DNA from: Muribaculaceae bacterium
Lineage (GTDB): Bacteria; Bacteroidota; Bacteroidia; Bacteroidales; Muribaculaceae
DNA: 41,798 nt
Reading direction: 5' to 3'
Assembly (NCBI GenBank): GCA_029060285.1
Contig: JAIDUH010000007.1
Coordinates: forward strand, 1-41,798
The notes under the pieces were generated by a model. That model worked only from the letters and a program-made list of their open reading frames with translations, was not told where the DNA came from and made no database searches. The position numbers and the translations under genes are program-made. Below, one piece after another: positions 34,338 to 37,826 of the stretch; the first letter of the stretch is position 1, and each line of letters opens with the position of its first letter.

Positions 34338-36611
34338 ATGAAGAAAAAAGTACTCTACGGAGTTACCTTGGCCCTCTTAGGTGCCTCTATGGTATCTCTC
34401 CAGTCCTGTAAGGACGATCTGAGCGACTTAGAACATCGTATGGATTACGAGTTGTATGGATCTCCTAATTCATTGAAAGAACTTTGGGAGAAATGCTTTG
34501 GACAAGGCAATGCGGAGAAGTCTCTTGACGAGAGAATTCAGGCTCTTGAAGATTTCATGGATGGCCTTAACGCCTTAAATACAAAAGACCCAAATGCTGG
34601 TTTTGAAGGTCTTTTTACAGAGCTGTGGAATGATATATATGGCGAGAATGGCCTTATGGATCAGATTGACGACCTGAAGAACAACGGTGGCACTGGTACT
34701 CCTGGTACTCCTGGCGACAAAGGCGAACAGGGCGATAAAGGCGACAAGGGTGACACTGGCGACAAAGGTGACAAAGGCGATAAGGGCGACACTGGCGACA
34801 AAGGTGATAAAGGCGACAAGGGTGACAAAGGCGACAAGGGAGATAAAGGCGAAGACGGCAAAGACGTTGACGAAACACTCCTTAAGACTATCCTTGAAAA
34901 AGTCACTAATACGGAAGCCAAAATTAAAGCCTTAGTTGACAGAATGGACAACCTTATCACAGGTATCCTCGTTCAAAGAGCTTTCGGTCCTGTATTCGGT
35001 GACTTCAGCCTGCCTATCGGTGTTCAGAGCAACTTGCTCTTCGGTTGGTATGGTGAAAATATCGGTGGCACTCCTACATTCCCATACAATGATGAAGTGG
35101 CTAAGGGCTTAGATTTCAGTAAAGTTGCTGAGGATGTAGACTATGAAGGCGATATCGATCTTGGTACACTTTATTTGACTCTCAATCCAGTAGGACACGT
35201 ATTTGATAATGAGCAACTCTCTTTGGAAAACTCTAAGGGTGAGAAGATTCTTACTTTCAAAGTCCAGAAAGAAGATAATTATCTTTTGAAATTTGGAACT
35301 CGTGCTTCTGAGAATGTAAGTAAAAATGGTTTCTATTCAGCTCCGGTAAGCATTGCCAAAGCTGATAAGGAAAAAGTGGAAGTAAAGATTGACAATGATG
35401 CTTTGAAGAGCGCTGTGAAGGCTGCTATAAAAGATCCTTCTACTCTTTCTGCTGCAAAACTTCTTAAGGCTGTTTATGATCAGATTGATCAAAAACTTCC
35501 TGCTTATGCAGTTCGTTATGATTGGAAATCTGCTAGCGTAGAAAATACTTCTTATTCAATTGGAGAAGATGGCTCAATCGCCACAACTACTCAAACTAAA
35601 GATAATGATTACTCTGTTCTCAGCAAGTATGAAGTTGGCGTAGCTACCGCTCGTCCTCTCAGCTACAATGCTCTCAAGGGTACTTCTTCTTCTAAGGAAC
35701 TTCCGACAGGCAACATCGATAACTTCATCGATAAGTTGAAAGACAAACTCCTTAATAATTTCAAGGTTAATACTGAAATTACTGTTGGAAGTTATAAAGT
35801 CAATGTTGAGGCTATTTCCTTTGATAATGATACTGAATCCGGGCAGATTGTTGCTGAAGTGTCAGGTATGGAAGTCAATGGTAAGCTTGTTCCAAGTTTA
35901 AGATATGGGTTTGAAAACCCGATCCAATTTAAAAATGCCGGTACATTTAATGTATATTGTGGTACTGAGCCTGCTGAAGCTGTTGATATGGTGACTAAAG
36001 CAATTGTAGAGGTGCTTAGTGTAGTGGCAGAAAGAACAGATGACGAAGCTTTCAAGGCTGAGGCTACCATGAAGTTGGATGCTATTCTTATTGAAATGAA
36101 TAAGCAGATTAATGACATCGTTGATAACCTCTATGCTAACGTTGAAGATTCGTTCAACTCTATTACAGGTAGCTCTTACTTCGATCGCGTTAACAAGGCA
36201 TTCGACCTTTACAACAAGATCGTTAAGAAGATTAACAAGGTTATCGCTAATCCGAACTCTGCTCTTCAGGTGGCTGCATTCTATGAGACTAAGGATGGTC
36301 TTGGCCTCCTCTCTCAGAAGAAGAATAGCGCTACTAAGGTTGTTAAGTCTGATGGCAGCATGAAGGTATTCCTTACCAACTATACCGGCGAATTCATCGT
36401 TCCCGCTTACAAGAAGTATTTCGCTTGTACCAATGATGAAAAAGTTAATGCAGACAATGAAAAGCTTGGTGTTGTTCTTGATGGTAACGAGACTGTAGTT
36501 ACTATTGATGTGAATAAACTTGAAGCTGGTAAGAAATACGAATTCATCTATCAGGGTCTTGACTACTCTGGTTACACTTCAACCAAGAAATTCTACATCG
36601 AGGTTAAATAA
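34338..36611 (+). CDS. Lipoprotein with collagen-like Gly-X-Y domain
   Basis: The 757-residue protein has a signal peptide with lipobox LQSC (Cys24), then a helical segment (about 45-115) with coiled-coil character. Next come 20 uninterrupted Gly-X-Y triplets (117-176, mostly GDK with GTP, GEQ, GDT and GED), then another coiled-coil-like stretch ([20 protein letters not shown]). About 550 residues of unrecognised, beta-rich sequence with internal Lys-rich helices follow. A short collagen rod between two helical trimerisation-like segments suggests a trimeric, envelope-anchored stalk displaying the C-terminal domain. A strong promoter precedes it, and the OmpA-family gene follows 87 nt later, so the pair may act together at the cell envelope. 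The C-terminal function is unknown. Confidence 0.85.
34686..34865 (+). repeat. DNA repeat encoding the collagen-like tract
   Basis: The 180 bp consist of 9-bp codon triplets such as GGCGACAAA and GGTGATAAA repeated with synonymous changes, forming longer near-identical 18-36 bp blocks. Units are multiples of 9 bp, so length changes would keep frame and lengthen or shorten the rod. Confidence 0.85.
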
Positions 36612-36627
36612 GTTTTGATTGATTCGT

Positions 36628-36653
36628 GTCCGGAGCCGTCTCCGGTTCCGGAC
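36628..36653 (+). other. Intercistronic hairpin
   Basis: GTCCGGA and TCCGGAC form the outer stem and GCCG/CCGG complements pair inside. No U-run follows, so it is unlikely to be a strong terminator. It may be a processing or stability element between the lipoprotein and OmpA-family genes. Confidence 0.5.
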
Positions 36654-36698
36654 CGATACTGAAACTAATCGGAAACCCAAATATTAAAGAATTCAATT

Positions 36699-37826
36699 AT
36701 GAAATTAAATAAAATTCTTCTCGCTGGTGCTATGCTTTTCGCTGGAGCTTCTGCTATGGCACAAGAAACCATCACCGAGTATTCATATGTTCCCAACTGG
36801 TATATCCAGGGACAATTCGGTGGTCAGGAAACTCTTGGCGAATCATCTTTCGGCCACCTCTTCAACCCCAATGCTCAGATAGCAGCCGGCTACAACTTCA
36901 ATCCTTACATTGGCGCTCGTCTCGCTGTCAACGCTTGGCAGTCTAAGGGTGCTCTCAATGATTTCACAGGCAAAATTGGCAATGGCCACTGGAAATGGAA
37001 TTATGTAGCTCCTACTGTTGACGCTGTTGTAAATCTTACAAACCTCATCGGCGGTTATGATCCATATCGTCTTGTTGACGTTGACCTTATTGCCGGTATC
37101 GGTGCTAACATCGGTTTCAACAACAAGCAGGCTAACGAATACAGCCAAAAGCTCGTTAACGCAGGTGCTGATAAACTTGGTCTTCTCTGGGACGGCACTA
37201 AGGCTCGTTTCGTAGGTCAGTTCGGTTGCGACCTTAACTTCAATGTTTCTGAGCATGTTGCTCTTGGCATTGAGCTTATGGCTAATGTACTTCCTGACGG
37301 TTACAACTCTAAGAAGGCTGGCAACGCTGACTGGTATTTCAATGGTCTCGCCGGCATCAAGTATACTTTCGGTCCTAAGTACAACAAGACTACACGCACT
37401 GTAGAGGTTCCTGTTCAGCAGCCTCAGATCATCGAGCGTATCATCGAGAAAGTTGTAGAGCAGGCTCCTGTCACCAACGTCATCGAGGAAGTTAAGCCTG
37501 AAATGCTTCGTCGCGACATCTTCTTCCGCATCAACACTGCTACTATCACTAAGGAAGAAATGTACAAGGTCAACGAAGTTGCTCAGTTCCTTAAGGATCA
37601 CCCCAATGCTAAGGTTGTCATCACAGGTTATGCTGACAAGGGTACTGGTACACTCGCTATCAACCTCCGTCTCAGCAAGCAGCGTGCTGAAATCGTAGCT
37701 AACACTCTTAAGAAGAACTATTCTATCGCTCCTGACCGTATCATCGTGAAGAGCATGGGCGAAGCTGAAGAGCAGCCTTATGCAGATCCAGTTGACAACC
37801 GTGTAGCTATCTGCGTTTGCGAATAA
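36699..37826 (+). CDS. OmpA-family outer-membrane protein
   Basis: The 375-residue protein has a signal peptide ending AMAQ, an N-terminal eight-stranded-barrel-like region (about 25-225) and a linker rich in Glu, Val and Pro with IIERIIEKVVEQ. The C-terminal OmpA domain (about 260-375) has VVITGYADKGTGTLAINLRLSKQRAE and the usual Asp and Arg peptidoglycan-binding positions. Codon use is strongly biased toward a few codons, suggesting high expression. It should link the outer membrane to peptidoglycan. It follows the collagen-like lipoprotein and ends at a strong terminator. Confidence 0.93.
   Translation: MKLNKILLAGAMLFAGASAMAQETITEYSYVPNWYIQGQFGGQETLGESSFGHLFNPNAQIAAGYNFNPYIGARLAVNAWQSKGALNDFTGKIGNGHWKWNYVAPTVDAVVNLTNLIGGYDPYRLVDVDLIAGIGANIGFNNKQANEYSQKLVNAGADKLGLLWDGTKARFVGQFGCDLNFNVSEHVALGIELMANVLPDGYNSKKAGNADWYFNGLAGIKYTFGPKYNKTTRTVEVPVQQPQIIERIIEKVVEQAPVTNVIEEVKPEMLRRDIFFRINTATITKEEMYKVNEVAQFLKDHPNAKVVITGYADKGTGTLAINLRLSKQRAEIVANTLKKNYSIAPDRIIVKSMGEAEEQPYADPVDNRVAICVCE

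Follow-up and report, generated by a model that had tools for sequence, protein, structure and literature searches.

A lipoprotein stalk paired with an OmpA-family protein in Muribaculaceae, with collagen as an occasional stalk segment

Several known systems resemble parts of the locus analyzed here. In DUF4988 (PF16378) lipoproteins of Bacteroidales, a lipobox with an acidic motif precedes a helical segment, collagen and a large, variable C-terminal part. The streptococcal adhesins Scl1 and Scl2 and the Legionella adhesin Lcl carry a collagen shaft on the cell surface. The E. coli prophage proteins EPclA and EPclB are proven to join a trimeric coiled coil and a collagen triple helix in one stalk (PMC3368898). 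In the AtaA-TpgA pair, a trimeric autotransporter adhesin has a periplasmic partner of the OmpA/peptidoglycan-associated type that strengthens its anchoring (PMC13082670), and the OmpA-like proteins Pgm6 and Pgm7 of P. gingivalis form trimers (PMC6112661).

Our window, a 41,798-nucleotide stretch of a Muribaculaceae genome, encodes a 757-residue lipoprotein (34338-36611, plus strand) followed by an OmpA-family protein of 375 residues (36699-37826, plus strand). The lipoprotein shares the layout of the DUF4988 proteins, but it has no DUF4988 match, carries a head of another family and has an obligate OmpA partner. In the same genus, four collagen lipoproteins (L048, L049, L056 and L057) do match DUF4988, with E-values of 4e-22 to 2e-56; they combine DUF4988 and collagen tracts with varied domains (DUF4465, CotH). 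The anchors and heads of Scl1, Scl2 and Lcl are unrelated to those of the window protein. Their NCBIfam models score it at 49.9, 49.8 and 37.4, all far below the respective cut-offs of 325, 400 and 500, and the matches to NF038330, NF038329 and NF046116 are essentially confined to its stalk and collagen tract. EPclA and EPclB differ in being prophage proteins with other end domains, which are not lipoproteins and lack an OmpA partner.

With respect to anchoring, AtaA uses its own C-terminal membrane domain, whereas the window protein uses its N-terminal lipid. No C-terminal YadA-type anchor was found in the latter, as no Pfam family exceeds its cut-off outside the collagen tract, and the TpgA model scores the window OmpA at 36.7 bits against a cut-off of 350. 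By analogy with TpgA and AtaA, the obligate peptidoglycan-binding OmpA suggests a base that may hold or organize the stalk. Pgm6 and Pgm7 are, like the window OmpA, OmpA-family proteins of Bacteroidales, and since they form trimers a trimeric platform is conceivable here too. We found no description of the module in the open-access literature. What emerges is a putative surface module of three genes, as yet without a name, in the Muribaculaceae, a family common in the gut; in it, a lipoprotein stalk is connected with an OmpA of its own.

The gene pair, its candidate expression signals and a third gene

Homologues were searched for with a 41-member alignment of the lipoprotein head (A1), and the full family set comprises 68 non-redundant members, including the window protein. 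The family is present in 57 of 397 Muribaculaceae genomes, covering 10 of the 30 genera sampled, and in 43 of the 111 genomes of the window's own genus. An order-wide sample added 3 of about 294 other Bacteroidales genomes, and no member was found among 296 other genomes of a phylum-wide sample. When GTDB contigs were scanned with this one protein, only one relative turned up, the whole-genome searches being far more sensitive.

The OmpA gene starts 87 nt past the lipoprotein gene. PF00691 matches its product at 60.8 bits (cut-off 27.2, E 1.7e-16), and its PDB relatives are 9uu2, 3td3 and 3nb3; the alignment with 9uu2 includes the GYAD...LSxxRA stretch. We therefore assign it a C-terminal domain of the peptidoglycan-binding type, and its family membership and sequence arrangement suggest an N-terminal 8-stranded barrel. 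Adjacency was assessed in the 67 of 68 family members, window included, whose 3' flank is no shorter than 450 nt. In each of the 67, the gene that follows is an OmpA homologue that lies 20-136 nt downstream and is 40-100% identical to the window OmpA. Within the genus, this OmpA occurs in 45 genomes, comprising all 43 with the lipoprotein and 2 without. In one genome without it (G049), the contig ends 58 bases upstream of the OmpA gene. In G355, a diverged OmpA (38%) is preceded by a different lipoprotein of 1192 aa (L152, 5914-9492, minus strand), which has a KDYDDD motif and a helical stalk of ~370 residues, with no homology in the head. The combination of stalk and OmpA thus recurs with a different head, and to judge by these sequences the head of G355 seems to have been replaced while the stalk type and OmpA were kept.

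These results show that the lipoprotein and OmpA are paired and inherited together, which agrees with the sequence-only reading of the two genes as one module. The genomes are related, so the co-occurrence counts are not independent trials; even so, a match this tight would be difficult to account for unless the two share a function. It could be argued that the genes are merely co-transcribed and share no structure, the OmpA being a general envelope protein. The codon bias of OmpA exceeds that of the lipoprotein (effective number of codons 35.5 and 44.0, with 49-52 in neighboring genes), so the two are probably made in different amounts, as this explanation would allow. Yet this type of OmpA keeps to genomes with the lipoprotein, unlike a housekeeping OmpA, even if kinship inflates the counts, and even the exceptional G355 pairs it with another stalk lipoprotein. 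We therefore regard mere co-transcription as unlikely.

The sequence-only reading had also given the pair its own promoter, a strong terminator and a highly expressed OmpA. The codon bias is consistent with the last of these, as far as this measure speaks to expression. A pattern search placed a candidate Bacteroides-type promoter, TTTG-N21-TAATTTTG, at 34163-34195 (plus strand). It contains the only -7 box (TAnnTTTG) on the plus strand within 33900-37960, while the loose pattern with a spacer of 17-22 occurs 4 times per strand in the window. A sigma-70 scan of the gene-pair region did no better than shuffles, its consensus not being the one that this phylum uses. Downstream, folding revealed a terminator hairpin with a T-rich tail at 37887-37916 (plus strand; dG -25.5 kcal/mol for 37880-37930, z -7.8). 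The two genes would be transcribed together.

The spacer between them (36612-36698) folds into a second strong hairpin (z -4.3), located at 36624-36656 on the plus strand. Within the window's clade, 15 members share it, and it is absent from most other family members. Across the 15 relatives, compensatory changes occur at 7 of its 13 pairs, and the covariation score was not reached by any of 500 shuffles. This score is 0.26, compared with at most 0.12 for slid controls, and the kinship of the relatives can inflate such values. The hairpin has no Rfam match. It lacks a T tract, which rules it out as a terminator, and the simplest guess is that it acts in mRNA processing or stability, permitting more OmpA than lipoprotein to be made.

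A third gene (37952-39133, plus strand), encoding 393 aa, is regularly associated with the pair, making this a three-gene module. Its homologue adjoins the pair in 15 of 15 extended lipoprotein loci examined and is found in 42 of the 43 genomes of the genus that have the lipoprotein; in the remaining one (G042), the locus stops at a contig edge. In one subclade (e.g., G008, G039, G043 and G061), the gene lies on another contig or ~7 kb away and is still present. The AF2 model of the protein (pLDDT 85.2) led Foldseek to match its N-terminal part to beta-trefoils, including ricin-B-type lectins, with a TM-score of up to 0.62 of the target. Long homologues add Big_2 repeats, with up to ten such Ig-like repeats in L149. 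The C-terminal tail weakly resembles the type A sorting domain of the T9SS (TIGR04183, 17.9 bits, E 0.0023, below the cut-off of 23), and the genome contains a homologue of the T9SS component SprA.

Stalk, head and proposed assembly

The lipoprotein begins with a signal peptide, lipobox cysteine and acidic KDDL motif (34338-34421, plus strand), reading LQSC24 followed by KDDLSD. In the family alignment (A2), C24 and D26 are invariant and K25 and D30 nearly so. A residue of the K/R/Q/S group at +2 with D or E at +3 is found in 59 of 67 lipoprotein family members, and many members have a single acid only, at +3/+4. Tested lipoprotein export motifs are CS(D/E)2 in Bacteroides and C-X-K-(D/E)2 in Capnocytophaga (PMC5080379, PMC6222051). 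The CKDD of the window protein, with K at +2 and acids at +3/+4, is near to these but not identical. The acidic residues behind the lipidated cysteine fit export to the cell surface, where this motif would place the protein.

Behind the anchor lies a stalk made of a first helical segment (residues 29-116, 34422-34685), the collagen-like tract and a second helical segment that leads up to the head (residues 177-207, 34866-34958), all on the plus strand. The first segment aligns with the start of the stalk in the closest orthologue, L045; the second is kept in L045 and is helical in the AF2 model. The stalk as a whole shows heptad periodicity (z 4.3), so that, as far as periodicity can tell, it was reasonable to read the collagen flanks as coiled-coil-like. 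A stalk is found family-wide. We measured its length and periodicity from a stalk-head junction motif that we were able to locate in 46 of the 68 members, those with collagen included. Length ranges from 77 to 447 aa (median 263). The heptad z-score has a median of 8.3 and exceeds 3 in 34 of these 46 members; in the other 12, and in the short stalks above all, periodicity is weak (z of 3 or below).

The C-terminal head (residues 208-757, 34959-36608, plus strand) is covered by alignment A1. Searches with residues 190-757 found no family by sequence in Pfam, NCBIfam or the PDB, in keeping with the sequence-only reading, which could not place this domain; only helix-rich chance matches appeared, such as apolipoproteins, and these were rejected. 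The AF2 model (mean pLDDT 76.8, pTM 0.57) contains pieces resembling beta-sandwiches, along with a long helical hairpin. The model is of moderate quality, and the fold is thus only a lead. Foldseek gave partial Ig/FN3-like matches only, and placement by fold was likewise rejected, as these partial beta-sandwich matches had TM-scores of at most 0.15 of the query and assigned no family. Among viral proteins, Foldseek found no match to the head model below E 0.001. On sequence grounds, the head forms a separate family.

One could also place the lipoprotein on the periplasmic side, where it would space or tether the outer membrane and peptidoglycan together with OmpA, the stalk acting as a ruler. 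This would make use of the peptidoglycan-binding-type domain of OmpA and of a lipoprotein anchored in the same membrane. Against this, the stalk varies almost sixfold in length, and a straight helix of 447 aa would span ~67 nm (0.15 nm per residue), more than the periplasm. The head is large and variable, and the acid-rich residues straight after the lipidated cysteine are kept family-wide. Together, these observations make a periplasmic ruler improbable.

We instead favor, as the best explanation and a fairly probable one, a lipid-anchored homotrimeric stalk with an Ig-like head and a peptidoglycan-binding OmpA partner. The lipoprotein would form a homotrimer that holds its Ig-like heads out from the outer membrane, where it may serve adhesion or display. 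The collagen segment calls for three chains, and helical shafts that reach 447 residues call for an oligomeric stalk, both of which fit a trimer. The shaft would normally be a coiled coil of helices that differs widely in length between members, with about one third replaced in the window genome by a collagen triple helix that Lys-Asp/Glu pairs would hold together. The presumably co-transcribed OmpA, with its predicted barrel and peptidoglycan-binding domain, would be the obligate partner and probably anchors or organizes the base of the stalk in a physical complex. The protein encoded by the third gene, predicted to be a secreted beta-trefoil, probably acts on this surface structure too and may be its ligand-binding or capping subunit.

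A broader view of the module is more tentative and, we think, has a smaller chance of being right. It would be an undescribed surface organelle of Bacteroidales, in which a lipoprotein stalk, built of coiled coil, collagen and inserted domains as freely exchangeable trimeric shaft parts, stands on a dedicated peptidoglycan-binding OmpA and is completed by a beta-trefoil protein delivered through T9SS, the heads being replaceable and the OmpA base kept.

The collagen segment of the stalk

As the sequence-only reading had stated, the 757-residue lipoprotein upstream of the OmpA gene carries 20 perfect Gly-X-Y triplets. They run without interruption through residues 117-176 (34686-34865, plus strand), are nearly all GDK and contain 10 KGD and 2 KGE units. 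PF01391 (Collagen) matches residues 119-175 at 36.9 bits (cut-off 27.2, E 3e-9), a score above the cut-off which indicates that the run is no chance event. The prediction that the GDK tract would do without hydroxyproline and rely on Lys-Asp pairing fits this composition. In host-guest peptides, KGD and KGE pairs are reported to raise the melting temperature of the triple helix by 15-17 degrees, and they stabilize triple helices that lack hydroxyproline (PMC7824840). The content of such pairs in the tract is thus favorable for a stable triple helix.

That reading had also treated the collagen tract as part of the module, and here it needs changing. The tract is absent from 65 of the 68 members, in which the stalk is helical alone, so the family cannot be defined by its collagen. 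The module is instead the stalk lipoprotein with OmpA, and collagen is a lineage-specific swap. What stands of the proposed single surface module is the strictly conserved pair and the stalk, whose reading fits; the collagen is not a family trait, and the third gene had been left out.

The swap is best seen in L045, whose head is 56% identical to that of the window protein and whose neighbors are the same (cysS, ispG, the gene pair, the third gene and a DEAD-box helicase). The two lipoproteins align from residue 1 to ~80 of the window protein and again from ~177, with helical sequence in between in L045. An alpha helix rises 0.15 nm and collagen 0.286 nm per residue. On these assumed rises, a straight stalk would reach at most ~35 nm in the window protein, with 118 helical and 60 collagen residues, and ~40 nm in L045, with 264 residues, and the collagen swap would roughly keep the reach of the stalk with fewer residues.

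Two other family members carry collagen-like triplets. L080, a distant member from another family, has three collagen blocks with 37 triplets in total (Pfam E 3e-15). Across 493-3534, these blocks alternate with DLDNDGDIDEADM-type repeats that resemble dockerin or EF-hand calcium-binding loops. L207 has 7 proline-rich Gly-X-Y triplets, counted by eye, followed by an inserted stalk segment that is Ig-like in appearance. This run is short enough to be doubtful as collagen, while the tracts of the window protein and L080 are secure. In a maximum-likelihood tree, the three members occupy separate, well-supported places, and every bootstrap tree requires three changes of the collagen state. Collagen seems to have been gained separately in the window protein and L080, i.e., at least twice, and perhaps a third time in L207. 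In principle, one old gain followed by losses would give the same pattern, but many losses would be needed. Collagen therefore looks like an interchangeable segment of the shaft and not the core of the module. That a single family seems to have put a collagen triple helix in place of its coiled coil, or alongside it, at least twice amounts to a natural experiment, through which one can test directly whether the two trimeric rods are equivalent.

We considered whether the tract could itself be the functional ligand, mimicking host collagen to its receptors, and find this very unlikely. Certain bacterial collagen-like proteins act in host recognition (review, PMC3707005), but the tract consists mostly of GDK repeats in which we recognized no receptor motif, and it sits in mid-stalk, at the place where L045 has helix. 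That it arose as an artefact of sequencing or assembly, or as a neutral repeat, is hardly credible: the draft genome is split into 224 contigs and the tract DNA is a 9/18/36-base tandem repeat, but the frame is intact through 757 codons, the 36-base units are only 87% alike, Gly is kept in 20 of 20 triplets with differing codons for Gly, Asp and Lys, which indicates that the tract is maintained as protein, and the distant L080 has an even longer tract in its stalk.

For such a shaft segment, donor sequences are at hand in the collagen-bearing DUF4988 lipoproteins of the genus, among which no donor of this tract was identified. Many other PF01391 matches in genomes of the genus are frames in low-complexity DNA and not collagens (e.g., L053 and L059-L074). 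In the window, antisense open frames (PLSPLSP...) run across the collagen tract at 34654-34960 on the minus strand as a by-product of the GDK repeat.
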